From NCBI GenBank assembly GCA_015956445.1, contig WIUZ02000003.1, forward strand, positions 682,001 through 746,000: a stretch of 64,000 nucleotides of DNA. Direction: 5' to 3'. The translations under genes were made by a program, and so were the position numbers. The stretch comes from Thelephora terrestris (lineage: Eukaryota; Basidiomycota; Agaricomycetes; Thelephorales; Thelephoraceae). Of the stretch, positions 27,666 through 51,456 are shown one piece after another (position 1 is the first letter of the stretch; each line of letters starts with the position of its first letter). A model generated the notes under the pieces. That model was not told the origin of the DNA and made no database searches. It saw nothing but the letters and a program-made list of their open reading frames with translations.

Positions 27666-29157
27666 ATGGCAGGCCGTTTTCCCGACGTAAATAGTCAGGG
27701 AATAATAGACATATTCTGGGGAGGGATGCATCAGGCAATAAGAGTCGAAGTACTGAAAATGGGAGCTCACCCGGAACGGTCCGATTTGAATACCATCGCG
27801 GATTGTGCAGCGAGGGCAGAAGACGGCCTATTGGAAGCCGAATTACAAAAGCAGAAGGATATACCAAAGGAGGGACGTACTTGGGGAAGGTTCCCGAACC
27901 GAGTGAGCGGCCCACAGCCCCATCGCCCGGCAAGGGACGACGGCGGGATGGATCGCAACAAAGGGCAGGAGCAGGTCAGAGCCAACGCGATTACCCCTCA
28001 ACCGAGGATGGACCCGAACCGAACGGATGGAGGGCGTCACCCGGATGGAGGGCGTAACCGTCGTGCGCGAAAGGGAAGGCGAGTTAGTCGCGAAAAGCGA
28101 GATCAGCTCCGAGCCGAAGGAAAGTGCTTCCAGTGTGAGCAGGTGGGACATTCTCAGCGAGATTGCCCGGAATTAAATATGATGAGACCGCCTGCCATAA
28201 GAGCCAATAACGTCAACATCGCGAGGCTAGAACGGTTGGCGAAGACCAGAGGAAAGGCTGACTTACAAATGGGTCATATCTCGATGGTAGGGAACGACGA
28301 GGTCGTCGATGATTTGACTCCCGCGATGCACAAGGTGTACAAATGGTGCGCAGCAACCTGGGGGGAAGATAACAGATGGTTAGATCCAGCGACACGGTAC
28401 CAGAGCAAGTACGGAATTTACCAGTACGGGACACGCGCTGGGGACGTGATGGAGATAATTCTATACGACGAACCTGGGGTCAGACCGTTTGAGGTGGATG
28501 TTAGTCGTTTTATCAACCCGGAATTATGCCTGGCCGACATGTTGGGTGCGAAAGCGAACACAACCCCGGCATGTGTTCGGGAGGGCGGGTTCCGGGATAA
28601 CGGAAAATACGATACCTGGAAGTGGCCGGCCTTGGAATGGTTAAGGCAGTTGTTAACGGACCAACTTAAACTTGAAGAGAGCGGCGATACGGTGTCAGTA
28701 AAACCCTCGTATGAGGGGTATGGCCTACATCTCAAAGGCACCGATGTATATTACGAGATCACTCACACAGAGATGCTCGGGAGCGGCCTTCATATCGGGC
28801 GTGTGTTGAACGCCATGCGCACGGTCAAGGGGACCACCCCATGGGAGCGTTCCCCAATGTTCTGGGACAAACGCATCACCAAATGGCAGAGTCTGATGGC
28901 CCTCGCGACGAGGCTGACAGCGGGATCAGTCAGACACCATAAGCAAGTGACGGAGGGCGCGAACTCACTGGAGAAGACGTCGATGCAAGTAAAGGACCAG
29001 ACACGAAAGGTCCCAGAACCCATAGTCGTTCTAGCCTACATAAATGGTCACGAGGTCCGGGCCCTAGTCGACACAGGGTCAATGGCCGACTTCGTGTCAA
29101 CGACTGTCATAGAACAATTGAAGTTAAAGAAGGAGGTATATACCAAACCTCTCTCTG
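27666..29157 (+). mobile_element. Ty3/gypsy fossil, rest of gag and protease
   Basis: This is the continuation of the gypsy fossil of 19834-22056 beyond the inserted 5.6-kb element. It contains the gag C-terminal core, a basic linker, one CCHC zinc knuckle (CFQCEQVGHSQRDC) and an aspartic protease motif (VDTGSMADF). The fossil ends abruptly at about 29157, where the terminal repeat of the Penelope-like element begins. Reverse transcriptase, integrase and the 3' LTR are not in the window. Confidence 0.85.
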
Positions 29158-30233
29158 CAGTAGTACTTATTAAAATGATTAAGACTTTGTGATGTTTTGT
29201 CTTAAAAGTGAATGATTTTTCTCATGAGTTCCTCAATGCCCCCAAGGGGGCAAATTTTACTCATAGAGTATTAATCAAAATTATGGGGGGGACTAGGACC
29301 CAGCTGACCGGGCACTGGTGTTCCCAATTAGGCAGGTGCCGATGGTGTGGATGACCTGGGAGAGTGGATCGCTTATATAATGAAAAATAGACTGTGGGAA
29401 TTTCCGATCAAAATTTTCCCAAAAGGGAAATTTTGATGGCTGATATAAGCAGGTCATGTGACTGGAAAAAGTGGGTGTTGATTATGTAATCAGGTCATGT
29501 GACCAACCAAAAAAGGAAAGTTTTGATGGCTTACATAAGCGTCTCAAAAATGTGTTTGAAGGGGTCTTTCCTAAAAAGGAAATTCCTTTTTAGGAAATAT
29601 TTGATGGATTACCAAAAAAGGAAATTTTGATGGCTTACATAAGCGACTCAAAAATGATTTTGACAAAAAATCCCAAAAAGGAAATTTTGATGGCTTACAT
29701 AAGCAACTCAGAAATGATTTTGGCAAAAATTACCAAAAAAAGAAATTTCCTAAAAAGGAAATTATGCCCTAGAAAATTTGGAAAAATGCCAGAAAAATCC
29801 GAGTGAGGGGGGGCCGAGCGAAGCGAGGCCTAGGGAGATGGGCGGGGGCAAAGGGTAGGTGGGGAAACCACCTTTCCGCCCTTTCGTCTCTTTATAGCCC
29901 AAGAGACTCATCAGTGCCGTTGCCAAGTAAGGAAGAAGTTACCATTTGCGGAGAACAAAGCGGGGTTATGGCTTGCTATTGTTCTCCCCGATCGTGGGAA
30001 ACACGCCGAAGGCGTGTTTCTTCTGAATACAGATAAGGGGCCTGGGCCTTTGAGGTGAATGAATGTATTGTGATGCCCCTATCTTAGGGTTCTTTGATCC
30101 GTGATCTTCGGCCCCCTATCTGTCATCTATAGAAGATCAGTGGAGTTAGAAGCATCAATTCATTACCTAAGCGTCTCTTTTGACAGTTTCCATCAGAGAA
30201 GACTGATGATCAAAAAGAAGAGAAGACGTGATG
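29158..30233 (-). repeat. Penelope-type terminal repeat (pLTR), 3' copy
   Basis: A 1.08-kb repeat in the sense of the RT gene, lying 3' of it. It recurs as a partial direct copy at 45523-45960 and as an inverted copy at 45961-46995, with only a few differences (a TA indel, a TG/CA pair). Inside are three or four 65-70-bp repeats carrying TTTTGATGGCTTACATAAGC (about 29510-29720), a hammerhead ribozyme (29840-29926), and strong hairpins GAAACACGCC/GGCGTGTTTC (29999-30021) and GGAGAACAA/TTGTTCTCC (about 29949-29986). Penelope-like elements are known for such direct or inverted terminal repeats. Confidence 0.8.
29840..29926 (-). ncRNA. Type I hammerhead ribozyme, copy 1
   Basis: The minus strand carries CTGATGA (29914-29908), a 7-bp stem II GTCTCTT/AAGAGAC, then GAAA, stem III AGGG/CCCT enclosing an inner GGTGG/CCACC hairpin, then the cleavage triplet CTT. 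Stem I is GGCA/TGCC, a 3x3 internal loop and GGC/GCC. All core nucleotides (C3 to A9, G12 to A14, A15.1-U16.1) are present. The cleavage triplet CUU is permitted, though less common than GUC. The sense agrees with the RT gene. Confidence 0.75.
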
Positions 30234-30308
30234 CGTGATCGGATCAAAGAAGTTTGATCCGGCGCTTAACTTAATTACGTCTTCGGTGCTTGTTCTATTT
30301 TTAGAAAT

Positions 30309-30417
30309 TCCTATTTTTTCGAGGGAGGGTAACCGACGTTGGGTTTAGGAGGATCGGGGTCGTAAGACCCCATCCGACTTAAACCCAACTCGGTTACCCG
30401 AGTGAGAAAAAATAGGA
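30309..30417 (-). other. Long RNA hairpin in the 3' untranslated part of the Penelope-like element
   Basis: The arms TCCTATTTTTTC/GAAAAAATAGGA, GGGTAACCG/CGGTTACCC, TTGGGTTTA/TAAACCCAA and GGGGTC/GACCCC nest around the loop GTAA, giving about 40 base pairs in 109 nt. It lies between the RT stop (30829) and the terminal repeat, and is not part of the repeated unit. It may be the structure recognised by the RT; that is inference. Confidence 0.7.
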
Positions 30418-30828
30418 GTTAGGGTCTGCACGATTGCCAAATAGTATAGGCTTGCCTTATGCAAATATAGATTTTTTATACATGTTTTAAGTCATGTTAA
30501 CAGTTCAAGTTTTGTTGATTTCAGTAACCGTAGTAGGCGCTGCATGCCCATCCTGGCAAAATGCCTATCGTACCCGGGCCCGTCCCCAGTCCATAACCTC
30601 CCCCGTAGTTTGTGGCTCCCCCGAAGGGGGCCGGGAAGTCTCCCCCCGCATAAGGGGCACTACAGATCTTCTTCTGTGTGTAATAAAGGACTGAGAGTTG
30701 TCCCCAGTCAATAGATCTACAAGTATGAGCGTTCTTGAGGGTGGGCCCCCACGTCGGGATGGGAGGACGTGGACAGATGCCATCTTGGCACAAGATCCCT
30801 GCTCTATAATGCATGTTTTGTGATGCTA

Positions 30829-33800
30829 CTACTCTGTACGTTCATCGTACAACACCTGTTCGAAAAGGGGATCAGAGGGGCGTAAAAGGCCCCACTCGTC
30901 CATTGCTTTGTCGAAGATGAGTTTGTTCCAGGATCTAGTCAAATCCCACAATTGAGTATTCTTCTTGCGGGAGACTATGAAACGTCCCTTTTCGATCCAA
31001 GGCTCCGCCTTAACGGCGATTTTCTTTTGGGCAGCAGTTCCCTCCGGACCTCGGAAAGTAGTCGTCCTGGCATTGGACGTTAACTTTCTTCGTTTCGATG
31101 GGCCAGGGAGGTTACCCTCCCCACTGCGCTTTCCAAGTATAGAGTTGCCCTGATGAGTCCACTCTGCCTTAATCGTCTTCTCGAGCTCCTTAACGTTAAC
31201 GTATTTCCAGGCGTCATTGAAGTGGGTTTTCAACGTAAAGAGGATGGTTTCGTCTTCCTCGGGGTCCTTACGAACCGAGAGTCTATCTTCCCATCGCTTA
31301 TTTTGTTGTCCCTTCAACCATGACATAACCAGTGCTGGTGGATATCCTCGTCCAATGTAGAGGTTTACTGCTTCTCTGCATTGGTTAAGGTAGGTGTCCT
31401 GCACACTACACAACGTGGCCAGCCGGCTAATTTCGGACGAAAAGGTACCTTTCTTTACGTCTAAAGGGTGACCTGAGTCCCATGGAATACGTTCTCTGTG
31501 GGAGGATGCTTTAACGAAGGGTTCATGATAGATCTCTTCGCCCCTAATTTCCAGGTGTAAATCTAGGAAATTTGCTGTTAATGCGGGGGGCTCCCAAAGA
31601 AGGTTTACCGAGCCTAGTTTAAAAGGCTGCACCACTCTTAACGCCTCGGCAGGCGTGTCTGCTAAGATGATGGTGAATATATCGTCGAGGTATCTGCCAT
31701 AAAACAAGACTCTTTCGTCAAGTTTAGTGACTGAGGACCTCATGAATTTCATTTCGGCTTCTATACCATAAATGTTGGCAACGTCGGGTGAACCCGCTGC
31801 CCCCATTGGTAAGCCCCGTTTCTGGACGTATATATAGGGTAAATATGTCATAGCCGGAGGAAACAGTGCCACTTCCGCCATATCCTTATAGCATTGTTGG
31901 ACTCTCACTGCGTCAGCGCCGTTTAGGAATTCTCCTTTCGCATGAAGGTCTGGACGTATTACTCGAAAGTAGAATGAGTTAAGGGAGCGCCTTGCTTCAT
32001 CCAGCGGGATAGATGGGTAGAAGGCCACCACATCCGCGCTTACGATCCAGGCTTTCTGGCCTGCCGGTATTTTTACGTCCTTTAATTTACGAACAAAGTC
32101 TTTGCTCCCCTGTATGACCCAGGGGCATTGTTCAATATATGGACGGTACAATTTACTGAGTAACTTAGACGCAGGATTCTGGGGCAAACTGTGCCCTGGA
32201 CAGATCGGCCTTCCCTTCCACGGGTTTTTGTGGATTTTAGGGATGGAGTACGCTTCTGGAACGTACGGGATCCATTCACTCCACGTCTCTCCTGAGTTTT
32301 TAGGGAGGTTGTGGAGCAAGAATTTCGACAACTGCTTATAGTCTGCAAAATGCGTATTGACTAAGTGTCTAATTTTGTTACTGAGTTGGTTTAGGTGACC
32401 TACAGCTTCTTCGGAAGTTACTGGGGTGTAATTTTCGAGATCCCGAAGATTCTGCATTGTTTGATCAACGATCCAATCGTTTTGGAAGACAGCTACGCCA
32501 AGGTTTTTATCCGTATTCGTTACAATGAGGTTATTTGTAACTAGGAAGGCTTTGCAGCGGGCCACGTCAGGAGAGAAACGACCTTTCTCCATTCGTTTTT
32601 GTTCAGGTATGGATGCAATTGCTTTGGCAATGTACTCCTGTCCTGCAACAAGGCCAGCTTCTATTTGTCTCGAGGCCGGTGGAGGGACTTTTTCTTCTTC
32701 GTCCTCATCCTTTCCGACTTCGTAATCTGGATCGTATGGTTCACCGGTACCTCCTTCGATGTGGAATTCCCACCTCCATCGAATACGTCTTACGAGGTCC
32801 GTATATGCGTTTTGTATTAAACTCCCATCGATTTGCTTATGAAACATATACTTCAAAGACGCAGACAAATCATGTTGTATTCCCAGGGGGACGTGAACAC
32901 CAGGCTGAACATGTACCGTACTACGAGACCTGGCAATCGTCAACTCTCTAATTGACGAGCGGGTAAGTAAGGCTTGTACCTGTAATGGGGGGGGAAGGAG
33001 AAGGATTTCGTCAGGATAAGTTTTAGGTTTCCCGGCGGTCCATGGCTTACTTAAAACTATGCTCATGTTGCCTTTTTCTTCCCTTTTGCCTTCTCGCTTG
33101 GCCCATTCTTCTTGGGCACGGTGGCGCCGCCAGCTACTTGAGGTTGCAGAACCTGTTGCTTGGCGGAGGGCTTGGTCTTGTTCTTCTTCCTCTTGGGTTG
33201 GTTCTGCTGCTGCTGAAGCCATTAGTCGGTATGGAGATGAAGACTCCATGACGATAATGGATACCTTAGAAGAGGAGGAAGGGGCCTGTGGTTTCCCCAT
33301 TTGAGCGAGCGCCGCCTTTACCTGGCGGGCTACCTCATCCTGGATGGTTTTGTCCACAGTGGCCTCGGAGATGGGGGTGTCCTTCATGACAACGTCGATG
33401 CTAGCCTTGTCCTTTGCCTTCCCTTTGAAGGAGGCGACGGCCTTCTCAAGAGCCTCCCTTTTAAGGTCGAAGACCTTGGTAAAGATGGTGGGGAGGTCTT
33501 GGCTGAGCGAGTGGAGTTGGTTGCGGTAGGGCTTGTACTCGGCGTCCAAGACGACTTCCGGAGTGGAGTCGTCGCCTGGAGGCTTCTTCCAGCGAAAAGT
33601 GCCCTCCTCGTTACGCTTGGCATAGCGTTCACCGAGGATTTCCTGGGCCCTACTCACAAGTGCGGGTATCTCGAGGAAGGCAGCTGTGCGATCTCTCTGG
33701 GCCTTGACAAGATCAACTTGACAAGACAGCAGCTTAGATTTCGCTTCGCTGACGATCTTGTTAGATACGCCAACCCAGTGAAGGTTGAGAAGGTCTTCCG

Positions 33801-33912
33801 ACCCCTTGGCTACTTGAAGGTGGGGCACCTTGATTCCGTTATAATTCGAGGGAAATACATCCCCCGCGAAATCAAGGGCTAGCTTGGCAGCTGCCTTCTC
33901 GTAGGACCGGTG
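30829..33912 (-). CDS. Penelope-like reverse transcriptase, EN-deficient (Coprina/Athena type), main part
   Basis: This frame is open from the LINE insertion point at 33912 down to the stop at 30829, about 1025 codons. Markers of the Penelope RT group are the NTDKNLG motif (DKG-like), SIPKIHK, VSADVVAFYPSIP (first catalytic Asp), GLPMGAAGSPDVANIYG, YGRYLDD (catalytic Asp pair) and NFLDLHLEI in the thumb region. The C-terminal 200 residues are basic with KRRK, and hold no GIY-YIG endonuclease or Cys motif, as in the telomere-associated Athena and Coprina families. The N-terminal 300 residues are a Lys/Glu-rich helical extension. Its 5' end is at 40132-40512, separated by a LINE; the reading phase on both sides of the LINE target duplication agrees. 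Confidence 0.85.
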   Translation of the reverse strand, partial: HRSYEKAAAKLALDFAGDVFPSNYNGIKVPHLQVAKGSEDLLNLHWVGVSNKIVSEAKSKLLSCQVDLVKAQRDRTAAFLEIPALVSRAQEILGERYAKRNEEGTFRWKKPPGDDSTPEVVLDAEYKPYRNQLHSLSQDLPTIFTKVFDLKREALEKAVASFKGKAKDKASIDVVMKDTPISEATVDKTIQDEVARQVKAALAQMGKPQAPSSSSKVSIIVMESSSPYRLMASAAAEPTQEEEEQDQALRQATGSATSSSWRRHRAQEEWAKREGKREEKGNMSIVLSKPWTAGKPKTYPDEILLLPPPLQVQALLTRSSIRELTIARSRSTVHVQPGVHVPLGIQHDLSASLKYMFHKQIDGSLIQNAYTDLVRRIRWRWEFHIEGGTGEPYDPDYEVGKDEDEEEKVPPPASRQIEAGLVAGQEYIAKAIASIPEQKRMEKGRFSPDVARCKAFLVTNNLIVTNTDKNLGVAVFQNDWIVDQTMQNLRDLENYTPVTSEEAVGHLNQLSNKIRHLVNTHFADYKQLSKFLLHNLPKNSGETWSEWIPYVPEAYSIPKIHKNPWKGRPICPGHSLPQNPASKLLSKLYRPYIEQCPWVIQGSKDFVRKLKDVKIPAGQKAWIVSADVVAFYPSIPLDEARRSLNSFYFRVIRPDLHAKGEFLNGADAVRVQQCYKDMAEVALFPPAMTYLPYIYVQKRGLPMGAAGSPDVANIYGIEAEMKFMRSSVTKLDERVLFYGRYLDDIFTIILADTPAEALRVVQPFKLGSVNLLWEPPALTANFLDLHLEIRGEEIYHEPFVKASSHRERIPWDSGHPLDVKKGTFSSEISRLATLCSVQDTYLNQCREAVNLYIGRGYPPALVMSWLKGQQNKRWEDRLSVRKDPEEDETILFTLKTHFNDAWKYVNVKELEKTIKAEWTHQGNSILGKRSGEGNLPGPSKRRKLTSNARTTTFRGPEGTAAQKKIAVKAEPWIEKGRFIVSRKKNTQLWDLTRSWNKLIFDKAMDEWGLLRPSDPLFEQVLYDERTE

Positions 33913-34323
33913 TTTTTTTTTTTTTTTTTTTTTTTTTCGGTGCTAGTTTATTGTGCTAAGGTAATACTACCTATGTTACACATTACGAACTGCGAATTCT
34001 GGGTGAGGTGGTATGGTTGCCGGGCGAAAAGTTAAAATCTGTGTTGTGAGCTAGCCCTCAGCACTTCCCTCCTTTCGCCCGCATTCCTGTCCTTCCAGCC
34101 CTTCCTTCCTTCTTGTACTTTGGTCGGATATCTTTCGTATCGTTTCGAACTTGACAGCGTTTTAGTGAGGGGAAATTCCCGAGTGATGAGAGGTGAGCTA
34201 AGATGTTAGCGTAGGACGGTGTTGTTGGTCTGGCGTTTGGCGCCTTTCCATCCCGAGTACCTATTTCTTCCGATATCCCCAACGGAACTTGAAGGGTCGA
34301 TGGGTGTATCCTCGGTGAATGGG

Positions 34324-37300
34324 TTAGATCATTTCAGGCTCGATGCGCGTGCGAGTCTTCTCCTTGACTGGTTTCTCCTTTATGACGAGATTGTCCTTCG
34401 GGCGAACTTCCCCGAAAGTTGCCCTGAGACGGCCGGTGTCGCTGACGTAGTGTAGTAGAAGTGGGATCCCTTTTCTGCTGCTCATAAGGTGTGTGGATGT
34501 GAACTCGTTTCTGCCGACGCTAGCCATGAGGCGCCCCCGTGCTCTGGCGTAGTGCGGGCAGAAGAATAGGAAGTGGGTGATTGTCTCGTTCGATCCTTGT
34601 CCGCAGTGTGGGCAGTGAGTGGTTTCTGCTCGTTTTATCCTGAATAGGATGTGGTTGAGAGGGATGTGTCCCGTTCTGAGTTGCGTCAGCAAGCTGGCTT
34701 GGTTGCGTTGTAGTTGGTCAATGATGTGGAGAAAGTCGTCGGATGGGAGGGATTTGTCGATAGTCGCGGTGCGGTCGTGCCTTGGTGAATCTGCCCATTC
34801 CCTTAGCCATCTAGCCTTCAGGTCCTTCTTGAGTTGTTGTCGTGTCGCTGAGATGCTGATCGGGAGAGGTTTCTTCCGTAGGTACGTCGGTAGGTCTTGT
34901 GCGCTGCTTGATTCGCCCTGTGCCGCCAGTTTCGCCAGTTCGTCCGCCAGCTCGTTCCCTTCTATATCCTCGTGTCCCGGTGTCCATACGAATTCGATGT
35001 AGCACCACCTCTTCAGCTTCCATTCCTCCCACCCTTTGCTTCCGTCCGCTAGCTTCGTTCTTCCTTTCCCTTTCCTGTACCCTTTGAGCGTGATTCCTCT
35101 CCTCCTCGCCTGTATCGCCTGAAAGTCCTGAACTGCGTCATGAATTCTGTCCATGATGTGATGCCCCGGCCTTGATTTCTGGTTCTGTAACCCTAGTAGG
35201 ACCGCCTGATTGTCCATTCCTATCGTAACCTTGTTGATGCGTTGCTTCCGTTCTGCTAGCATGTGGAGAGCTAGCGTCACCGCTACCACCTCCGCCTCGT
35301 ATACCGTGTGTTCCTCGTGAGTCCCTAGGTGGTATTTGAGGGTTTTGATGTTAGTTCCATTGATTATCAAAACCGCCGCTGCTCCGATCTTGTTTTCAAA
35401 ACCCGAGCCGTCTGTGTAGATTGCTGTCCCTCCGATATCGTGTGCCGCTGCGATCGCTTTTTGTCGGTCTTCTTCTATGACGACATTTGCGAGTAGAGAG
35501 TAGTTACGTCGCCTTCTGGTGGTTAGGATGGTTTCATAATTCTGCGGTTTGACTGCGGTGGTGAGGAAAAGGAGGTGGAGTGGGCTACGGTGTCGTTTGG
35601 GACTTCTTTTGACGGCTCGTTGGACGGGTTTATGAAGCGGGTGGCAGACGGGTAGGGTAACTAAACGGGTTGCAACTCGAATCAGCGATTTGAGGAAAAG
35701 GAGATGGGGAAAGGGGAGGTGCGCGTGGACACTAAGGACGTCACCGGCTGTGGTTCTCATCGCTCCTAGGATTGTGATTGCTGCTCTTCGCTGTTCTGTG
35801 ACGAGTTTTTGAGTGAACTTGATTGATCCCGTCCGTCGTGTCGCGTTCGGTGTTGGGAGGTGGGGGGTAGTGTACCAAACCTCTGCTGCGTAGGACATTT
35901 TGGGGATTGCGATTGCCGTGTAGAGTTGTCGCATTCCCTTGGCTGAGATTCCTGTTGTTGTGCGTGCTAGTCTACGTACCAAGTTTATCCATGCGGATGC
36001 TGAACGACCGGCGCGTTCGGTTTGGGCGTTCCACTTGAGCTTCGGGTCGAAGAGGACTCCTAAAAAGCGGTAGGTTAGTGACGGGTTGATCGTGGTTGTG
36101 GTGCTGGTGTGTGGGTCAGTTAGCGTTAGGGCGGTGGGCTGGTGTGGTCTGGTGGTGAAGTCCATGAGCGCAAGCTTGGAGAGCTCGAATTTCGAGTTGT
36201 GCGTTTTGGACCATTCGAACGCGCCTCCCGTGCGGGTCATCATGTCGTTGAGTTTGCCGTGTGTCTCCGTGAGGTTGTCTCCTATGGCGAGTAGTGCCAC
36301 ATCATCGACGTAGCCAAATTGTTGCTCGTTTGTCGCTGTGGGTGGGCTGATTTCGAGAAGTCCCGCGTTGTAGAAGGCGTAGAAGATCATCGAGAGTGGG
36401 CATCCCTGATTGTTGCCGTTGTCTATTGCTATGAAATCGGAGAAGAAGTCGTCAAACGAGAGTTTGGTTTTTCGACCGGTCAGCATTCTCTCCGTTAGTA
36501 GAACGTATCGCTCTGGGACTGCTCGTTTTCTCATGTTGTGTATGAGGACTTCTTTGACGACGTTTGGGAACGCACCCTGTACGTCCAGGAAGAGGACCGA
36601 GGCTACCTTTTTGTATCTCCATGCTTCCTTGATTCTGTGGGTTAGTAGAAGCATCGAATCGGATGTGGTTCGGGCTGGTCTGCCGCCGAATTGGTTCGCG
36701 GGGAATGCCTGTCTCGATTCGCAAAAGTGGCTTAGATCGTCAGCAACAATGGATGAGAAGAGTTTTCCGAGGGTATTGAGTAGCGCGATGGGTCGGTACG
36801 CTTTCGGTTCTTCGTAGGATGGTTTACCGGGTTTCCTCAGTACAACTGTAATCGATTCCTTCCATTCATCCGGGTAGACGTTGAGTTCGAAGATGGCTCT
36901 AAAGACATAATAGACGTGTTTGATCAGCGTGTCAATGGTCTTTTTGAGAACGACGTTAGGGATTCCGTCTGGCCCTGGTGCTTTGTAAGCTTCCAGTTTC
37001 TTGGCGGCTTTGCGGATCTGGTCTGGGGTGAAGTATTGAAAGATGTCAGCGGGTCTCGGGTAGATCGTGTGGGGAATGATCGGTCTCGCGGGAGGGGGAG
37101 GGAAGAATGAGTTAGCTAGTGCGGTGCTCTTTTCCTGGTTGGAGTTCGTGTGTCTGATTTCACCTGTGGGGTCTGTGAACTTGAGCGTTGGCATACGCGT
37201 TCGTCCACCATCTGTCGGAGGGTCAGTCGCGTATTTGTTCGCTGTCCATACGTCTCTTTCCGACGCATTCGTTAGCCAATTCTCCCAGTGCTCTTTCTTT

Positions 37301-38415: not shown

Positions 38416-39986
38416 TGGGGGGGTTCGGGGTGGAGTAGGGGTCCCGGCGCGTATGTGTTCGTGAGGTGGGTCTGACGGAGACCCGGTGGGCGGTAGGCCG
38501 CTTCGCGTTGTTGTGGTGCTGGGGGGTTAGTGCGGGTGTGCAGCTGTGCAGTGGCCCAAGTCCAGGGTTCATCTGTGGGGTAGAAGACGAGACTGTTTTC
38601 GGGTCGTCTCGAGTCAGTCTGTCTACATCTGTCGATGAATGCGGGGCAGTCTCTACTGTAGCTGGGATGATTTCCCGAACAGTTGACACACTTGAACTGC
38701 GCTGGGCTGGCCGTGCATGTGTTCGTCTCGTGTGTATCAGTGCATCGCCCGCATCTAGGGGACTCGAAGGCACAGTCCCGACGCTCGTGACCGAAGCGTG
38801 AGCAGAAGAGGCAACGAATTGGCTCTTTCTTGGGTTTCCTTGGAACAGTTGATTTATTGAAGACTGACGCACCTTCGCTTAGGATCTTGTTCGCTGATTC
38901 GGCGTCCCTGTGATACACCCTCATTGTCGCCACTCGTTGAATCGATGTTCTCGCTTTGATGGGTTTGATCCATTCTGCTTTTAGAACTGAGTTAGCTTCA
39001 ATACCGTTGTAGAGCTCATACTGCCTTAGGTGTTCTTGGTCTTCAGGATCGAATTGAATTGGTACGAACTGGACGATCACTTGGTATGTTCGGTCTTTGA
39101 TGTTGGCGCCTGACCCGAGTCCTACCAAGAAGCTTTCTCGAACTCTGGGGGTTCTCAACCAATCGGCTGAGTCCGTCGAGTCGAGTTCGAGAAGCAGGCC
39201 ACCGTTCTTCAGAAGCGTGATCGTTCTGAGGACGGGGCGTTCGGGTTTGGGGTCGGTCGCTGCGACCCACGTTGCGTTCAGGGCATCCTTGGCTTTCCTA
39301 GTTAGTGTCTCTTCGTTCAGTACTTCGAGGGAGGGGTTTTCGTCGTTATCGAAATCGATCAGTACTTGCCGCTTTTTGATCTCCTCTCGATTTTTGACCT
39401 GTAGCTGTGAGTAAGCCGCATTGGGTGTTGCGGGGGGGAACGGGGGGGGTGGTTGTGTTGGCGGGGTGGCGGCGGCTTGGCTGTAGGTTCTGATGGGGGT
39501 TGTCGCTTTCTGGGCTGAATCCTCGAGTCTCTCCTGTGTCTGTTGTAGCTTCTCGTTGAGTTCCAGGTATGATTTGTTGGAGTCGGTTATGGCCTGGAGG
39601 TGCGTGTTGAATTTCTCTTGGATATTGTTGGTGATGGGGAGTAGCGCGTCGAGGAGGTGTTTGGTGATTGTGTCGGCTACGTTGAGTCTGATATTGTCCT
39701 CCAGTTTCTCTGTGATTAGGTAAGCGACCGCAAGGATCGGATTGGCTGCTTCCTTATTGAGTTTGGCGGAGGGATCGAGGACGATTCCGAATAGAGTTCT
39801 TGCGAGCGTTTCGAGTGTAATTTGGTCCGCGGGTGTAAGCCAGCATTTGGTGTATAGGTAGGTCCTGGCTTCTTCTGCGTTTTTGACAGCAGATGGTATC
39901 GCTCTCATGCTCTCGTGTACTTGTTCGATCGGCTGGGTGGGCTTGAAGGAGCCTGAGGGCATTCTTTTGCCCGGCGGGTTTGGCAT
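38412..39986 (-). CDS. LINE ORF1: RNA-binding protein with three zinc knuckles
   Basis: 524 residues, starting MPNPPGKRMPSGSF. An N-terminal helical region with a coiled coil (SNKSYLELNEKLQQTQERL) is followed by a Pro-rich linker, an RRM-like region around ITLLKNGGLLLELDS, and three CCHC knuckles (CLFCSRFGHERRDC, CGRCTDTHETNTC, CVNCSGNHPSYSRDC). It would coat the LINE RNA in the ribonucleoprotein particle. The stop codon overlaps the ORF2 start. Confidence 0.9.
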   Translation of the reverse strand: MPNPPGKRMPSGSFKPTQPIEQVHESMRAIPSAVKNAEEARTYLYTKCWLTPADQITLETLARTLFGIVLDPSAKLNKEAANPILAVAYLITEKLEDNIRLNVADTITKHLLDALLPITNNIQEKFNTHLQAITDSNKSYLELNEKLQQTQERLEDSAQKATTPIRTYSQAAATPPTQPPPPFPPATPNAAYSQLQVKNREEIKKRQVLIDFDNDENPSLEVLNEETLTRKAKDALNATWVAATDPKPERPVLRTITLLKNGGLLLELDSTDSADWLRTPRVRESFLVGLGSGANIKDRTYQVIVQFVPIQFDPEDQEHLRQYELYNGIEANSVLKAEWIKPIKARTSIQRVATMRVYHRDAESANKILSEGASVFNKSTVPRKPKKEPIRCLFCSRFGHERRDCAFESPRCGRCTDTHETNTCTASPAQFKCVNCSGNHPSYSRDCPAFIDRCRQTDSRRPENSLVFYPTDEPWTWATAQLHTRTNPPAPQQREAAYRPPGLRQTHLTNTYAPGPLLHPEPPQ

Positions 39987-40131
39987 GCAAGATGGGTCGT
40001 TTGTTTATTTTATATTCGGTAATGGGTTTTGGGTGTGAATGCGATGTAGAAAAGAGTAAATACTTCGGTTTTGCTGGCCGACCCACTCGAAGTCCGAAAG
40101 GATAAGTGGTGGTTGCCCGAAAAGGAAGTCG

Positions 40132-40512
40132 GGACCGGTGTTTATCGGAGGTGACGTTAATCTCCCCGATAAAACCTTCAAGGGTTCCCCTGTAAAACGG
40201 GGGAACTTCAGATAGCACCTGAACTAGGCCGGGAGCATCCCGGATTCTAGTTTGACGCTCCGCAGAGACGTCTAGGTGGTATGGATCAAAGGCCCGACGT
40301 TGACGTTCTTCAGGCGTCTCCTCGTCGGGACCAGTGGGGAGGAGGAACTCTGGGATGGGCGACCTATGGCGAAGGTCCAGAGTCATCCGGTGAAATGCCG
40401 GGGGTAGAGAGGAGGAGGAGAACGAGTCCTCGGAGCGGGTAGGGGCTCCCACAGAAGAGGCACGACCTTTGAAGGTCGTATTTTTCGAACTAGAGGCGGC
40501 AGAAGACATAGG
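40132..40512 (-). CDS. Penelope-like RT, N-terminal part beyond the LINE
   Basis: The ATG at 40512 opens MSSAASSSKNTTFKGRASS, a low-complexity start, then HHR-rich and acidic stretches (TPEERQRRAFDPYHLDV) up to the LINE target duplication at 40132-40143. The frame upstream of the ATG is open into the 35-bp satellite (to 40587), so a start inside the satellite is possible. The region is the N-terminal extension of the RT gene at 30829-33912, split by the LINE. Confidence 0.65.
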
Positions 40513-40599
40513 TGTTGGTGGTGGTGGAGCCCCTTCAGCTATCTTTTCTCCATGGGTCATGGACCATACATCGTGACAATTCTCCATGGGTCATGGGCC

Positions 40600-42460
40600 A
40601 TGCAACGTTGTACAACGCGTTGTACAACCCATGACCCATGGAGAAAAGATACCATTGTACAACCCATGACCCATGGGTAATGGAATAGTATCCGTTGCCC
40701 ATGCCCCATGGGTTGTACAATGGTATCTGTTGCCCATGCCCCATGGGTTGTACAACACTATCCCTTCCCCATGCCTCATGGGTTGTACAATGCTATCCTT
40801 TCCCCATGGGGCATGGGTTGTACAACACTATCCAATTCCCATGGGGCATGGGTTGTACAACGCTATCTGTTCCCCATGGGTCATGGGTTGTACAACGCTA
40901 TCCAATTCCCATGCCCCATGGGTTGTACAACACTATCCGTTCCCCATGGGTCATGGGTTGTACAACACTATCTATTCTCCATGGGGCATGGGTTGTACAA
41001 CACTATCCAATTCCCATGCCCCATGGGTTGTACAACACTATCCATTCTCCATGCCCCATGGGTTGTACAACACTATCCAATTCCCATGCCCCATGGGTTG
41101 TACAACGCTATCCAATTCCCATGCCCCATGGGTTGTACAACGCTATCCGTTCCCCATGGGTCATGGGTTGTACAACACTATCCGATTCCCATGCCCCATG
41201 GGTTGTACAACGCTATCCATTTCGCATGGGTCATGGGTTGTACAACACTATCCAATTCCCATGCCCCATGGGTTGTACAACACTATCCAATTCCCATGCC
41301 CCATGGGTTGTACAACGCTATCCAATTCCCATGCCCCATGGGTTGTACAACGCTATCCGTTTCCCATGCCCCATGGGTTGTACAACGCTATCCAATTCCC
41401 ATGCCCCATGGGTTGTACAACACTATCTGTTCCCCATGCCCCATGGGTTGTACAACGCTATCCATTTCGCATGGGTCATGGGTTGTACAACACTATCCAA
41501 TGCCCATGCCCCATGGGTTGTACAACACTATCCGATTCCCATGCCCCATGGGTTGTACAACGCTATCCGATTCCCATGCCCCATGGGTTGTACAACGCTA
41601 TCCAATTCCCATGCCCCATGGGTTGTACAACGCTATCCAATTCCCATGCCCCATGGGTTGTACAACGCTATCCAATTCCCATGCCCCATGGGTTGTACAA
41701 CGCTATCCATTTCGCATGGGTCATGGGTTGTACAACACTATCCAATTCCCATGCCCCATGGGTTGTACAACACTATCCAATTCCCATGCCCCATGGGTTG
41801 TACAACGCTATCCAATTCCCATGCCCCATGGGTTGTACAACGCTATCCATTCTCCATGGGGCATGGGTTGTACAACACTATCTGTTTCCCATGGGTCATG
41901 GGTTGTACAACGCTATCCATTTCCCATGCCCCATGGGTTGTACAACACTATCCATTCTCCATGGGACATGGGTTGTACAACGCTATCCATTCTCCATGGG
42001 GCATGGGTTGTACAACGCTATCCATTCTCCATGGGGCATGGGTTGTACAACACTATCCCTTCCCCATGGCTCATGGGTTGTACAAAGCTATCTTTTCCCC
42101 ATGGGGCATGGGTTGTACAACACTATCCGTTTCCCATGGGTCATGGGTTGTACAACACTATCCAATTCCCATGCCCCATGGGTTGTACAACGCTATCCAT
42201 TTCCCATGCCCCATGGGTTGTACAACACTACCCATTCTCCATGCCCCATGGGTTGTACAACACTATCTGTTCCCCATGGGTCATGGGTTGTACAACGCTA
42301 TCCAATTCCCATGCCCCATGGGTTGTACAACACTATCCATTCTCCATGGGGCATGGGTTGTACAACACTATCTATTTCCCATGCCCCATGGGTTGTACAA
42401 CAGCATCTTGTGCCCATGGGGCATCAGTTGCAGAATGGTGTCCTTTCTCCATGTCCCATG
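40600..42460 (+). repeat. 35-bp satellite, left array (about 50 units), open in all three plus frames
   Basis: The unit is GGGTTGTACAACACTATCC followed by AATTCCCATGCCCCAT, with variants (ATTCTCC, GTTCCCC, TTTCGC; GGGTC or GGGGC in place of CCCC). It contains the perfect palindrome GTTGTACAAC and several CCATGG-like ones. No TAA, TAG or TGA occurs on the plus strand, so three overlapping frames of 596-635 codons stay open. As 35 is not a multiple of three, each frame reads the same 35-residue peptide repeat (MGCTTLS, APWVVQ, MPHGLYN). I regard it as a satellite rather than a proven gene. Confidence 0.85.
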
Positions 42461-42714
42461 CATTATATCACTATTCCAGGAAAGGAGATACTTTATAAAT
42501 CAACCATTAGCTGTGTGAATTTGAAAAAAATAGACTCTGTTTGTATGCATGATAGACCATATATCAGTTTGTGGCTCTAACCTAATGGAAACTAAACTTA
42601 ACCTGATAATAGCCACAACCTAATCCTCAATCTAACCTGAGCCAATGTAAACTTGATCCATGAACCTAAGCCTAACCTAATCCTAAACCTGGTCTAATCC
42701 CAAATCTAACCCTA

Positions 42715-42845
42715 ACCTGACCTGACCTAACCTAACCTAACCTAACCTAACCTAACCTAACCTAACCTAACCTAACCTACCCTAACCTAACCTATACCTA
42801 AACTAACCTATACCTATACTAACCTATACCTAACCTAACCTGGTA
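42715..42845 (+). repeat. Telomere-like (CCTAA)n array, left arm
   Basis: About eleven tandem CCTAA units (TTAGG on the other strand) at 42724-42778, followed by degenerate CCTATA/CCTAAA variants to 42842, and preceded by scattered CCTAA. The usual fungal telomere unit is TTAGGG, so this is a variant or degenerate interstitial array. Confidence 0.75.
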
Positions 42846-43489
42846 TGGGCAAACCTAACCTACCTATCATGACCTGTTTCAGCCTAATGTCATGTATGCC
42901 AGCCAAGACTAACTTCACCCAGTTGCAAACATATGACTTGGGTCACAGGACCATAAAGCAAACTGCAGTCCCCTCACTCTGTGCCCAACCATCCCATAAG
43001 CCCACAGATGCACATATATATCATCAGCAACCCAGCATCATGCTTATCACCCATGTTCAACCACAAACCACTCTCACCCTTTGTTCTGTGCTATCTCAAA
43101 GCCTAACCATAACTCTAGCTCACCCACCCATATTAATCCTTGTGTGGAATATGTTATAAGTCTATAAACCATATGTTTGTAGGCCACTTGCTTGTGTGCC
43201 CAAGGAGGTGGATGAACTTGAGTTGTGGTTTGTCTGTGAGATGGCACAGAACAAAGGGTGAGAGTGGTTTGTGGTTGAACATGGGTGATAAGCATGATGC
43301 TGGGTTGCTGATGATATATATGTGCATCTGTGGGCTTATGGGATGGTTGGGCACAGAGTGAGGGGACTGCAGTTTGCTTTATGGTCCTGTGACCCAAGTC
43401 ATATGTTTGCAACTGGGTGAAGTTAGTCTTGGCTGGCATACATGACATTAGGCTGAAACAGGTCATGATAGGTAGGTTAGGTTTGCCCA

Positions 43490-43625
43490 TACCAGGTTAG
43501 GTTAGGTATAGGTTAGTATAGGTATAGGTTAGTTTAGGTATAGGTTAGGTTAGGGTAGGTTAGGTTAGGTTAGGTTAGGTTAGGTTAGGTTAGGTTAGGT
43601 TAGGTTAGGTCAGGTCAGGTTAGGG
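43490..43625 (-). repeat. Telomere-like (CCTAA)n array, right arm
   Basis: Mirror copy of the left array, reading TTAGG on plus at 43557-43612. Together with the left array it faces the centre of the palindrome with opposite polarity. Confidence 0.75.
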
Positions 43626-43879
43626 TTAGATTTGGGATTAGACCAGGTTTAGGATTAGGTTAGGCTTAGGTTCATGGATCAAGTTTACATTGGCTCAGGT
43701 TAGATTGAGGATTAGGTTGTGGCTATTATCAGGTTAAGTTTAGTTTCCATTAGGTTAGAGCCACAAACTGATATATGGTCTATCATGCATACAAACAGAG
43801 TCTATTTTTTTCAAATTCACACAGCTAATGGTTGATTTATAAAGTATCTCCTTTCCTGGAATAGTGATATAATGCATGG

Positions 43880-45380
43880 GACATGGAGAAAGGACACCAT
43901 TCTGCAACTGATGCCCCATGGGCACAAGATGCTGTTGTACAACCCATGGGGCATGGGAATTGGATAGCGTTGTACAACCCATGACCCATGGGGAACAGAT
44001 AGTGTTGTACAACCCATGGGGCATGGAGAATGGGTAGTGTTGTACAACCCATGGGGCATGGGAATTGGATAGCGTTGTACAACCCATGGGGCATGGGCAT
44101 TGGATAGTGTTGTACAACCCATGACCCATGGGAAATGGATAGTGTTGTACAACCCATGGGGCATGGGAATTGGATAGCGTTGTACAACCCATGGGGCATG
44201 GGAAACGGATAGCGTTGTACAACCCATGGGGCATGGGAATTGGATAGCGTTGTACAACCCATGGGGCATGGGAATTGGATAGTGTTGTACAACCCATGGG
44301 GCATGGGCATTGGATAGTGTTGTACAACCCATGACCCATGGGAAATGGATAGTGTTGTACGACCCATGGGGCATGGGAAATGGATAGCGTTGTACAACCC
44401 ATGACCCATGGGGAACAGATAGTGTTGTACAACCCATGGGGCATGGGAATTGGATAGCGTTGTACAACCCATGGGGCATGGGAAACGGATAGCGTTGTAC
44501 AACCCATGGGGCATGGGAATTGGATAGCGTTGTACAACCCATGGGGCATGGGAATTGGATAGCGTTGTACAACCCATGGGGCATGGGAATTGGATAGTGT
44601 TGTACAACCCATGGGGCATGGGCATTGGATAGTGTTGTACAACCCATGACCCATGCGAAATGGATAGCGTTGTACAACCCATGGGGCATGGGAATCAGAT
44701 AGTGTTGTACAACCCATGACCCATGGGAAACAGATAGTGTTGTACAACCCATGCCCCATGGGAATTGGATAGCGTTGTACAACCCATGGGGCATGGGAAA
44801 TGGATAGCGTTGTACAACCCATGGGGCATGGGAAATGGATAGTGTTGTACAACCCATGCCCCATGGAGAATAGATAGTGTTGTACAACCCATGACCCATG
44901 GGGAACGGATAGTGTTGTACAACCCATGCCCCATGGGAATTGGATAGCGTTGTACAACTCATGGGGCATGGGAAATGGATAGCGTTGTACAACCCATGGG
45001 GCATGGGAATCGGATAGTGTTGTACAACCCATGCCCCATGGAGAATAGATAGTGTTGTACAACCCATGACCCATGGGGAACGGATAGTGTTGTACAACCC
45101 ATGGGGCATGGGAATTGGATAGCGTTGTACAACCCATGACCCATGGGGAACAGATAGCGTTGTACAACCCATGCCCCATGGGAATTGGATAGTGTTGTAC
45201 AACCCATGCCCCATGGGGAAAGGATAGCATTGTACAACCCATGAGGCATGGGGAAGGGATAGTGTTGTACAACCCATGGGGCATGGGCAACAGATACCAT
45301 TGTACAACCCATGGGGCATGGGCAACGGATACTATTCCATTACCCATGGGTCATGGGTTGTACAATGGTATCTTTTCTCC
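43880..45380 (-). repeat. 35-bp satellite, right array (about 40 units), open in minus frames
   Basis: Inverted counterpart of the left array with the same monomer and variants. The stop-free strand is here the minus strand (long frames over 43755-45347), so in both arms the open strand reads towards the palindrome centre. The order of variant units differs from the left arm in the inner part, while the outer units match one to one. Confidence 0.85.
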
Positions 45381-45522
45381 ATGGGTCATGGGTTGTACAA
45401 CGCGTTGTACAACGTTGCATGGCCCATGACCCATGGAGAATTGTCACGATGTATGGTCCATGACCCATGGAGAAAAGATAGCTGAACCCTGTGGGTGGTG
45501 CTCAGCGGTAAGTATAAAAAAT

Positions 45523-45960
45523 TCCGAGTGAGGGGGGGCCGAGCGAAGCGAGGCCTAGGGAGATGGGCGGGGGCAAAGGGTAGGTGGGGAAACCACCTTT
45601 CCGCCCTTTCGTCTCTTTATAGCCCAAGAGACTCATCAGTGCCGTTGCCAAGTAAGGAAGAAGTTACCATTTGCGGAGAACAAAGCGGGGTTATGGCTTG
45701 CTATTGTTCTCCCCGATCGTGGGAAACACGCCGAAGGCGTGTTTCTTCTGAATACAGATAAGGGGCCTGGGCCTTTGAGGTGAATGAATGTATTGTGATG
45801 CCCCTATCTTAGGGTTCTTTGATCCGTGATCTTCGGCCCCCTATCTGTCATCTATATAGAAGATCAGTGGAGTTAGAAGCATCAATTCATTACCTAAGCG
45901 TCTCTTTTGACAGTTTCCATCAGAGAAGACTGATGATCAAAAAGAAGAGAAGACGTGATG
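45523..45960 (-). repeat. Penelope-type terminal repeat, partial 5' copy
   Basis: Nearly identical to 29799-30233 in the same orientation, apart from a 2-bp TA expansion. It begins shortly outside the satellite palindrome and ends in a hairpin with the inverted copy that follows; the stem is continuous through CATCA/TGATG around a loop of about 33 nt. Confidence 0.8.
45565..45651 (-). ncRNA. Type I hammerhead ribozyme, copy 2
   Basis: Same sequence as copy 1, with the core CTGATGA at 45639-45633 on minus. It lies 5' of the RT gene in RT sense, so self-cleavage here and in the 3' copy would release a unit-length transcript. Confidence 0.75.
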
Positions 45961-46995
45961 GAAACTGTCAAAAGAGACGCTTAGGTAATGAATTGATGCT
46001 TCTAACTCCACTGATCTTCTATATAGATGACAGATAGGGGGCCGAAGATCACGGATCAAAGAACCCTAAGATAGGGGCATCACAATACATTCATTCACCT
46101 CAAAGGCCCAGGCCCCTTATCTGTATTCAGAAGAAACACGCCTTCGGCGTGTTTCCCACGATCGGGGAGAACAATAGCAAGCCATAACCCCGCTTTGTTC
46201 TCCGCAAATGGTAACTTCTTCCTTACTTGGCAACGGCACTGATGAGTCTCTTGGGCTATAAAGAGACGAAAGGGCGGAAAGGTGGTTTCCCCACCTACCC
46301 TTTGCCCCCGCCCATCTCCCTAGGCCTCGCTTCGCTCGGCCCCCCCTCACTCGGATTTTTCTGGCATTTTTCCAAATTTTCTAGGGCATAATTTCCTTTT
46401 TAGGAAATTTCTTTTTTTGGTAATTTTTGCCAAAATCATTTCTGAGTTGCTTATGTAAGCCATCAAAATTTCCTTTTTGGGATTTTTTGTCAAAATCATT
46501 TTTGAGTCGCTTATGTAAGCCATCAAAATTTCCTTTTTTGGTAATCCATCAAATATTTCCTAAAAAGGAATTTCCTTTTTAGGAAAGACCCCTTCAAACA
46601 CATTTTTGAGACGCTTATGTAAGCCATCAAAACTTTCCTTTTTTGGTTGGTCACATGACCTGATTACATAATCAACACCCACTTTTTCCAGTCACATGAC
46701 CTGCTTATATCAGCCATCAAAATTTCCCTTTTGGGAAAATTTTGATCGGAAATTCCCACAGTCTATTTTTCATTATATAAGCGATCCACTCTCCCAGGTC
46801 ATCCACACCATCGGCACCTGCCTAATTGGGAACACCAGTGCCCGGTCAGCTGGGTCCTAGTCCCCCCCATAATTTTGATTAATACTCTATGAGTAAAATT
46901 TGCCCCCTTGGGGGCATTGAGGAACTCATGAGAAAAATCATTCACTTTTAAGACAAAATGTCACAAAGTCTTAATCATTTTAATAAGTACTACTG
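45961..46995 (+). repeat. Penelope-type terminal repeat, inverted copy
   Basis: Reverse complement of the terminal repeat at 29158-30233, almost full length, ending in AGTACTACTG at 46995 as the other copy does at 29158. With the partial copy on its left it forms a palindrome of about 0.9 kb. Inverted or tandem partial copies are a known oddity of Penelope-like insertions. Confidence 0.8.
46227..46313 (+). ncRNA. Type I hammerhead ribozyme, copy 3
   Basis: Core CTGATGA at 46239-46245, stem II GTCTCTT/AAGAGAC (46246-46252, 46261-46267), GAA at 46268-46270, stem III 46271-46301, predicted cleavage after 46302, stem I GGCA (46235-46238) with TGCC (46303-46306) and outer GGC/GCC. Confidence 0.75.
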
Positions 46996-51374: not shown

Positions 51375-51456
51375 GACGTGTGAGTCGTGATAAGAGAAAC
51401 AGATAAGACAGAAAGGGGTATAGGTAAGGAAAGTGGGCGAAAGTTGGGTGTGAATA

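Follow-up and report, generated by a model that had tools for sequence, protein, structure and literature searches.

Composition of the 17.8-kb block

We analysed a 64-kb stretch of DNA (the window) that contains a 17.8-kb block (29158-46995) bounded by two different retroelement genes. The block is probably one young, endonuclease (EN)-deficient Penelope-like retroelement (PLE) of ~6.65 kb that carries two later insertions. The minus strand is the sense strand of the PLE, and in sense order the layout is an inverted pLTR with tail, a direct pLTR, a short leader, a reverse transcriptase (RT) ORF of 1,150 aa, a 3' UTR and a pLTR with tail. The later arrivals are a LINE in the ORF and, probably, a 4,953-bp palindrome between leader and ATG. 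The features are as follows.

27609-29157, plus: left flank, LTR-retroelement gag-protease, cut inside the protease domain at the element edge (Pfam)
29158-29792, minus: element 3' tail, 635 bp, which ends the element at 29158 and recurs only in the inverted 5' copy (self-comparison)
29793-30233, minus: 3' pLTR, part common to the direct 5' copy (alignment with 45517-45960)
29847-29918, minus: hammerhead ribozyme motif of the 3' pLTR, predicted cleavage between 29851 and 29850 (descriptor scan, fold)
30309-30417, minus: very stable hairpin, element 3' UTR (folding energy)
30829-33903, minus: Penelope-like ORF, C-terminal part with RT domain (YLDD) (Pfam RVT_1; the frame continues that of 40509-40132)
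33904-33912, minus: target-site duplication copy 2, CACCGGTCC, up to 12 bp counting preceding A's (9-mer count)
33913-40131, minus: nested LINE, 6,219 bp (ORFs, Pfam domains, poly(A), target duplication)
40132-40140, minus: target-site duplication copy 1 (9-mer count)
40132-40509, minus: Penelope-like ORF, N-terminal part, 126 aa, from ATG at 40509 (frame restoration)
40534-45486, no strand: palindrome, probably inserted, 4,953 bp, with ends TTCAGCTATC / GATAGCTGAA (self-comparison)
40663-42418, no strand: 35-bp satellite, left arm, about 50 units (TRF, word count)
42663-42841, no strand: AACCT array inside the left arm, C-rich strand on plus (TRF)
43494-43672, no strand: AGGTT array inside the right arm, G-rich strand on plus (TRF)
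43933-45357, no strand: 35-bp satellite, right arm, about 41 units (TRF, word count)
45517-45960, minus: 5' direct pLTR, about 437-444 bp common, RNA-sense start at 45960 (self-comparison)
45572-45643, minus: hammerhead motif, 5' direct pLTR (descriptor scan)
45956-46995, plus: inverted pLTR and tail, head-to-head with the direct pLTR (self-comparison)
46235-46306, plus: hammerhead motif, inverted copy (descriptor scan)
46996-50945, plus: right flank, Copia-type polyprotein frame abutting the element edge (Pfam Pol_BBD, rve, gag_pre-integrs, RVT_2; ORFs)

The Penelope-like element and its nested LINE

The RT-bearing ORF (33912-30829, minus strand) matched Pfam RVT_1 with 27.9 bits (E 2.3e-6), slightly under the curated cut-off of 29.6 bits. 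The motifs TDKN, IPKIHK, SADVVAFYPSIP, YLDDIF and S.HP are readable in its sequence, and we take these to be PLE hallmarks. A PDB search with the RT gave no match. AlphaFold without an alignment reached a pLDDT of only 34, and we count this, the RVT_1 score under the cut-off and the lack of an Rfam hammerhead against our reading of the block. GIY-YIG families (Pfam, E up to 5) were detected neither in the RT ORF or its N-terminal piece nor in the eight minus-strand ORFs of at least 50 aa overlapping 29158-30828, a scan that covered the minus strand, nine further ORFs there being on the plus strand; a simple GIY..YIG expression had no match in the six frames of 29158-34000. The ORFs and frames scanned thus lack the GIY-YIG domain, as in EN-deficient PLEs of the Coprina/Athena type.

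The ORF is interrupted by a LINE with a 9-12-bp target-site duplication. The duplicated 9-mer occurs three times in the window (shuffle mean 0.60): one copy at either end of the LINE, oriented alike, and a third at 19872. The LINE has a poly(A) at 33913-33937, an ORF1 of 530 aa (no Pfam family; a CX2CX4HX4C knuckle-like pattern by eye) and an ORF2 of 1,400 aa with APE endonuclease, RT and RNase H domains (Pfam), and so shows the features of APE-type LINEs; we presume that it is Tad1/I-like. Removing the LINE together with one copy of the duplication restores a single 1,150-aa frame with a stop only at its terminus, against 49 and 72 stops in the other two frames. The poly(A), the duplication, the restored frame and the ORF2 domains together identify the LINE as a later insertion. 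It separates the satellite side from the RT, and the N-terminal part of the RT gene (40509-40132) lies beyond it.

The outer inverted repeats (29158-30195 and 45956-46995, ~1,040 bp) share 1,036 identities with two mismatches and two gap positions, and the outer ends of the element match to the final base, except for the two mismatches ~35 bp inside. Segments 29793-30233 and 45517-45960 align with 441 identities, no mismatches and three gap positions, and by self-comparison the 635-bp tail is absent from the direct 5' copy. As in PLEs, the pLTRs are present in direct and inverted copies. A three-way alignment placed the end of the common stretch near column 438 and revealed a 2-bp indel, a TA present in both 5' copies and missing from the 3' copy; gene conversion or self-priming at that end would fit this indel too. 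The direct and inverted pLTRs overlap by 5 bp, TGATG, at 45956-45960. The inverted pLTR falls 38 bp short of the full pLTR length, complementary CATCA/TGATG lie at pLTR positions 1-5 and 39-43, and the junction is a hairpin.

A full hammerhead descriptor (CUGANGA core, stems I, II and III, GAA-A, UH site) had three matches in the 64 kb, one per repeat copy, which repeat a single sequence and so are not independent. Forty first-order-Markov sequences of 64 kb gave no match. By this descriptor the terminal repeats carry a predicted hammerhead ribozyme motif, a PLE character. With all three stems enforced, the 3' pLTR motif folds at -29.6 kcal/mol, within 0.6 of the minimum free energy (-30.2). 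Rfam hammerhead families gave no match at the gathering threshold in 27000-49000, nor in 29750-30300 with matches up to E 1 allowed. In the 3' UTR, 30290-30425 folds at -65.7 kcal/mol (z -10.0 against 200 shuffles).

A preliminary description had presented the block as a Penelope-type RT without GIY-YIG, flanked by terminal ribozymes and by 1-kb repeats in direct and inverted copies, with satellite and TTAGG arrays between the RT start and the 5' repeats. This description largely holds. The RT match just below cut-off, the lack of GIY-YIG by profile or expression, the descriptor-based motif in all three repeat copies (none by Rfam) and the pLTR copies support an EN-less, ribozyme-bearing PLE. 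The arrays lie where they were placed; the LINE there had been overlooked, and the 1-kb length holds for the inverted pair and not for the direct copy, with only about 437-444 bp. This copy is probably inactive: its RT gene is broken by the LINE, and in the leader of any transcript the palindrome would fold into a hairpin of 5 kb.

The palindrome and the telomere question

The palindrome consists of arms at 40534-43128 and 43207-45486 around a 78-bp centre. The arms are identical at 2,222 of 2,279 aligned positions (57 mismatches) and differ in length by 315 bp, equal to nine satellite units. Their ends are identical, both arms ending at the same base, and CCC stands on both sides (40531-40533, 45487-45489); a 3-bp flanking repeat has a chance expectation of roughly 1 in 64 and is weak. 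The satellite palindrome previously described is confirmed, with 35-bp units and AACCT/AGGTT arrays (both by TRF) inside inverted arms; 42641-42850 and 43481-43690 each hold 20 TTAGG, two of them TTAGGG. The word TTGTACAA occurs 49 times in the left-arm satellite, 94 times in the whole palindrome and nowhere else in the window. Exact satellite-word matches numbered zero in viral contigs, and two single ones were found in bacterial contigs. Self-BLAST found no match between the palindrome and the Penelope-like parts at E 1e-8, and no second palindrome copy in the window; the PLE termini and the mobility and independence of the palindrome are read from one copy, at 29158-46995.

The identical ends that stop together, the CCC on both sides, the confinement of TTGTACAA and the missing similarity to the Penelope-like parts suggest that the palindrome is a separate unit. 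Like foldback elements it is non-coding, with tandem repeats inside long inverted arms, and we favour reading it as a non-autonomous foldback-type DNA element with the 35-bp satellite as its arm repeat; the units are possibly transposase-binding sites. The TTAGG arrays would likewise, in our judgement, be arm sequence and not telomere. Satellite and telomere-like DNA had been thought to be accreted by the PLE and are better explained by two separate later insertions, the LINE with its target-site duplication and the foldback-type palindrome.

It is rather improbable that the palindrome is no transposon and instead an inverted duplication of local satellite made in break repair or PLE integration. 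The short flanking repeat, the lack of a second copy in the window and the lack of ORFs of at least 150 aa, save open satellite frames and a stitched 278-aa frame at the left end, would suit such an origin, yet both arms break off at the matching base and carry unit-like repeats up to their ends, as in foldback elements. Still less probable is a Terminon-like giant fungal PLE in which the satellite/TTAGG palindrome is real cargo that the PLE mobilises, the whole unit capping or extending chromosome ends. The palindrome does sit between pLTR and ATG, host DNA can become captured between the pLTRs of PLEs (passages in PMC3846280), rotifers have giant EN-deficient PLEs that bear hammerheads and attach to telomeres (sections of PMC6431247), and telomere-linked PLEs are reported in Agaricus bisporus (excerpts of PMC7473861) and Mycosphaerella graminicola (excerpts of PMC4522978). 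Against this, the window contains no TTAGGG dimer, and the TTAGG arrays within the arms are oriented opposite to fused chromosome ends. The 3' tail beyond the hammerhead (29158-29800) is free of CCCTAA and TTAGGG, where Terminons, in the sections consulted, carry the telomeric complement at once (PMC6431247). The LINE is a later insertion, and the palindrome is precisely symmetrical and CCC-flanked. A fungal Terminon counterpart, an EN-less hammerhead PLE with the 5-kb palindrome as its own cargo, used at broken or natural chromosome ends, would be the least probable reading of all.

The 3' end of this PLE copy joins a presumably Gypsy-like gag-protease gene and not the telomeric repeats to which 3' ends of EN-deficient PLEs are attached. 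The suggested end-protecting or end-extending role finds no footing in these data, with retroelement genes on both flanks, and a telomere cap is not supported: no chromosome-end mark was seen within the window. The locus cautions against taking satellite and telomere-like arrays beside a Penelope RT as proof of a telomere element.

Route of insertion and known systems

The left flank scored 25.4 bits with Pfam gag-asp_proteas (positions 3-41 of 92; cut-off 28.2) and 21 bits with zf-CCHC (cut-off 20.8). The Copia-type frame on the right has one in-frame stop (48300-48302) and, judging from its short N-terminal stretch, appears to miss its 5' part. No target duplication was found at the outer edges of the PLE. 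Recombination between two PLE copies is another possible source of such mismatched flanks.

The missing duplication, the unrelated flanks, the matching outer ends and the inverted copy with a 635-bp tail that the direct copy lacks point to an EN-independent insertion at a double-strand break. Both broken ends would have primed cDNA synthesis on the RNA 3' tail; one cDNA would have run full length and the other ~1,040 nt, with their 3' ends joined through five complementary bases (TGATG/CATCA). The unrelated flanks, the lack of a duplication and the 5-bp head-to-head overlap suggest such priming from both ends. In vitro, the protein of a lizard PLE that contains EN cuts the two target strands and extends both (passages in PMC11167929). 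EN-containing Penelope copies without target duplications and with microhomology joints are also described in parts of PMC3846280, so these two features are no proof of an EN-free route.

An inverted 5' copy made by snap-back self-priming instead of priming from two target ends is somewhat unlikely. The junction hairpin and the TA limited to the 5' copies agree with it, and self-priming is proposed for Adineta Penelope in passages of PMC3846280, but copy-back from the 5' end should give leader and ORF, and the inverted copy continues into the 3' tail. About equally doubtful is that ectopic recombination of two PLE copies from different sites, or an assembly join, brought the flanks together. 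The 1-kb repeats, at >99% identity, are good substrates for either; break insertion explains the mid-domain protease cut and the abutting Copia-type frame without a second PLE copy, a weak point, and arms that differ by 57 mismatches and nine units speak against a simple inverted-duplication artefact at the palindrome. On the break-insertion reading, the locus, a clean stack of nested insertions, would be an almost undamaged record of an EN-less Penelope landing where no telomere is recognisable, with each outer end equal to the presumed 3' end of the RNA. Should more copies share these features, break-patching by two-ended priming would become directly testable for this retroelement class.

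Among known systems, the nested LINE is an ordinary APE-type LINE with RNase H in its ORF2 domains, poly(A), duplication and ORF1 pattern by eye. The element shares with the EN-deficient fungal PLEs of the Coprina group a probable Penelope-type RT without detected GIY-YIG, hammerheads in terminal repeats and fungal-type surroundings (read from gene content), and differs in that the block is not at a telomere in the window and its 3' end lacks telomeric repeats. EN-less PLEs are described with two ORFs in parts of PMC6431247, whereas a single long ORF is found here. Terminons/Athena of bdelloid rotifers, as portrayed in the same sections, likewise combine an EN-less PLE RT, hammerheads and large total size; here the size comes from nested elements, no telomeric repeat lies beyond the hammerhead and no accessory ORF was recognised. 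The palindrome has a shorter flanking repeat (3 bp versus 8-10 bp) and a middle of only 78 bp when set against Tetris of Drosophila virilis, and resembles this foldback element, and Galileo named with it, in its kilobase inverted arms that are largely tandem repeats, non-coding and satellite-like (passages in PMC4079207). Pen2a of Adineta vaga differs in GIY-YIG and target-site duplication, neither detected here, and in a pLTR of about 0.2 kb against about 1 kb for pLTR plus tail, the direct 5' copy here being without tail (parts of PMC3846280). The same parts describe for Pen2a two direct pLTRs and one inverted that is 37 bp shorter with a 15-bp overlap, an arrangement matched here by two direct pLTRs and an inverted 5' one, 38 bp shorter, with a 5-bp head-to-head overlap.

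The Penelope-like element, its reverse transcriptase gene and a nested LINE

The block at 29158–46995 is a real, young Penelope-like element (PLE) deficient in the GIY-YIG endonuclease (EN), well preserved and mostly ordinary in kind; nested within it are a LINE and a foldback-like palindrome.

Features of the PLE (window positions; PLE terminal repeats are abbreviated pLTR)
29158–46995, minus strand (sense): PLE
29158–30233: 3′ pLTR followed by a 635-bp 3′ tail (29158–29792)
30829–33942, minus strand: open frame of the reverse transcriptase (RT) gene
33913–40131: LINE, nested in the RT gene
40534–45486: palindrome, between the 5′ pLTRs and the RT start codon
45517–45960: 5′ pLTR, same orientation as the 3′ copy (direct)
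45956–46995: 5′ pLTR plus tail, inverted

The RT ORF lies between the terminal repeats and starts within a run of 25 A's, which is the poly(A) 3′ end of the LINE located immediately upstream in the sense direction. Removal of the LINE (6,219 bp) and one copy of its target duplication yielded a single 1,150-aa frame from the ATG at 40509 to the stop at 30829–30831; the other two frames contained 49 and 72 stops. The 9-mer CACCGGTCC occurs in the same orientation exactly at both LINE ends (40132–40140 and 33904–33912), and the duplication may amount to 12 bp if adjacent A's are counted. A search of both strands of the window found a third occurrence on the opposite strand (19872–19880; mean of 0.60 expected from shuffles), which leaves the reading of an in-frame LINE duplication unaffected. 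Because the duplication stands at the LINE ends and removing the LINE restores the frame, the LINE inserted later, into a PLE gene that is open apart from it. It encodes an ORF1 of 530 aa, with a zinc-knuckle pattern by eye and no Pfam family, and an ORF2 of 1,400 aa in which Pfam recognises APE endonuclease, RT, and RNase H domains. A 278-aa ORF (39754–40590) was rejected as a gene, as it is a stitch of the palindrome end, the Penelope N-terminus, and the LINE 5′ end.

The RT ORF scored 27.9 bits against Pfam RVT_1, just below the cut-off of 29.6, and NCBIfam RT matches were weak and far below cut-offs. TDKN, IPKIHK, SADVVAFYPSIP, GLPMGAAGSP, YLDDIF, and S.HP are readable in the sequence, and we take these to be motifs typical of Penelope RTs. 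With Pfam (E up to 5), no GIY-YIG family was detected in the RT ORF, in the N-terminal piece of the gene, or in eight minus-strand ORFs (at least 50 aa) overlapping the 3′ region, and a GIY..YIG expression had no match in 29158–34000. No relatives were found in viral contigs (queries RT ORF and RT core) or prokaryote genomes (query RT core); six pattern-matching stretches with the RT ORF in the former and six with the RT core in the latter encoded none. Sequence searches of the PDB returned no match at E up to 1 or up to 10, and AlphaFold modelled the 491-aa RT core alone with a pLDDT of 34. The PLE 3′ UTR, bounded by the stop codon and the 3′ pLTR, holds a 109-nt hairpin (30309–30417, minus strand) in a stretch with a folding energy of −65.7 kcal/mol (z −10.0), possibly an RT-recognition or 3′-end structure. 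With the palindrome removed (joining 45487–45516 and 40510–40533), the leader before the ATG reads ..CTTACCGCTGAGCACCACCCACAGGG.., which resembles an intron 3′ end, and by this sequence likeness the 5′ leader may be spliced.

ORF and Pfam analysis of the window showed nested transposable elements and genes of fungal type (NACHT-WD40 protein, Gypsy-like, Copia-type, PIF1-type helicase, and kinase fragment), a gene content that we read as basidiomycete; ARAGORN found no tRNA. Two gag-like ORFs (20306–22096, without a significant Pfam family, and 27609–29157) could by eye be halves of a single Gypsy-type gag, and the 5.5 kb between them is a possible further nested insertion. The PIF1-type helicase frame (51454–52704; Pfam PIF1, Pif1_2B_dom) has one in-frame stop and is possibly a decayed Helitron. 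Self-comparison also revealed 78% identity over 721 aligned bp between 894–1600, within a presumably F-box-like ORF, and 5657–6367, and a small palindromic repeat cluster (1935–2708) of a ~187-bp sequence in four ~84% identical copies, first a pair in one orientation and then a pair in the other.

Terminal repeats and hammerhead ribozymes

Self-comparison of the window recovered one terminal repeat in three copies. The preliminary description had reported 1-kb repeats in direct and inverted copies, which holds for the outer inverted pair (1,036 identities, two mismatches, and two gap positions over 1,038/1,040 bp) and overstates the direct copy, whose common stretch is only ~437–444 bp. In a three-way alignment, both 5′ copies have a TA insertion in common, the two mismatches lie ~35 bp from the outer end of the repeat, and the direct copy diverges near column 438. 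A/T-rich tandem repeats with a 60-bp period (29610–29748 and 46405–46545) occupy part of the tail.

A hammerhead descriptor that requires the core, all three stems, and the dinucleotide at the cleavage site matched exactly three times in the window, once per repeat copy and always the same sequence, and had no match in 40 simulated 64-kb sequences (both strands). A hammerhead pattern had no match in viral contigs. Enforcing all three helices gives a fold of −29.6 kcal/mol, versus −30.2 kcal/mol unconstrained. Rfam gave no hammerhead at the gathering threshold in 27000–49000 or at E up to 1 in 29750–30300. Hammerheads are said to be present in all available PLEs, usually in minimal form without helix III (PMC6155905). 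The cleavage position predicted for the 3′ copy (29851/29850, in the motif at 29847–29918, minus strand) is ~690 bp short of the element end, so the integrated 3′ end was not produced by cleavage; this agrees with reported insertion in vitro that did not require the ribozyme to cut (PMC11167929).

The palindrome and its telomere-like arrays

The palindrome is almost perfect, with arms identical at 2,222 of 2,279 aligned positions (723/731 in the unique inner part) and differing in length by 315 bp, i.e. nine 35-bp units. Both arms terminate at the same base, with TTCAGCTATC on each side, and are flanked by CCC, a repeat expected by chance in about 1 in 64 cases and thus weak evidence. Unit-like repeats extend to the very ends, the nearer of which is 24 bp from the PLE ATG, and all 94 window occurrences of TTGTACAA, a piece of the unit, fall within the palindrome. 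A satellite word had no match in viral contigs and two single matches in bacterial contigs, taken as chance. By analogy, the palindrome matches foldback elements: Tetris likewise has kilobase inverted arms with tandem repeats (PMC4079207), but the 8–10-bp target duplications reported for it are missing here, where the flanking CCC repeat is 3 bp. With low probability, the palindrome is genuine cargo of the PLE. For dating, the arms differ more in the unique part (8/731) than do the outer repeats (4/1,038, gap positions counted), but not significantly so (Fisher p 0.084).

Within the 35-bp unit (40663–42418 and 43933–45357), CATGGGTTGTACAA is nearly invariant, while CCC, GGG, and GGT make up nearly all middle triplets of CCCATG-NNN-CATGGG (46/49 loops in the left array, 37/38 in the right). 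In the left array, 48 of 50 arm-to-arm mismatches fall on ten unit positions (1, 2, 7–9, 25, 31–33, and 35). Flip-flop of the 3-base loop was dropped as an explanation, as the complement of GGT is absent, and satellite ORFs of 285–636 aa were rejected as genes, being an open 35-bp unit repeated.

AACCT/AGGTT arrays lie within the arms, and the 210-bp stretch around each contains 20 TTAGG, two of them TTAGGG. No TTAGGG dimer exists on either strand of the 64 kb; chromosome ends of the basidiomycete Phlebopus are (TTAGGG)n (PMC12411881). The plus strand reads satellite, CCTAA, centre, TTAGG, satellite, an order opposite to fusion because fused ends would read TTAGG and then CCTAA. Fused telomeres at the centre were thus rejected, as the G-rich strands point outward and the repeat is TTAGG, not TTAGGG. 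Terminons carry the telomere complement beyond the hammerhead (PMC6431247), whereas the tail of our PLE contains neither CCCTAA nor TTAGGG there. The end-protecting composite proposed earlier found no support in the window. Telomere-linked PLEs are known in fungi (PMC7473861, PMC4522978), so by analogy other genomic copies of this PLE family may well be located at chromosome ends.

Insertion mechanism

Left of 29158, a gag-protease gene is cut within the protease domain (profile positions 3–41 of 92), and right of 46995 a Copia-type frame starts. No target duplication surrounds the PLE, as also reported for EN-containing Adineta copies (PMC3846280). Recombination between PLE copies could account for the mismatched flanks. 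Both outer ends have the identical sequence in opposite orientation, presumably the RNA 3′ end. This RNA 3′ end would have been primed from both sides of a break, and the two cDNA ends would then have been joined; an EN-containing PLE protein is reported to extend both target strands (PMC11167929). Alternatively, the inverted copy could have been made by self-priming, the explanation favoured by the Adineta authors (PMC3846280). We prefer two-sided priming because the inverted copy runs on into the 635-bp tail, which is absent from the direct copy.

The value of the locus lies in its insertion record, besides the slight prospect of cargo. The direct and inverted copies meet head to head with a TGATG overlap (45956–45960), the inverted one lacking 38 bp of the full pLTR. 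This arrangement is close to that of Adineta Pen2a, which has an inverted pLTR 37 bp short and an overlap of 15 bp instead of 5 bp (PMC3846280).
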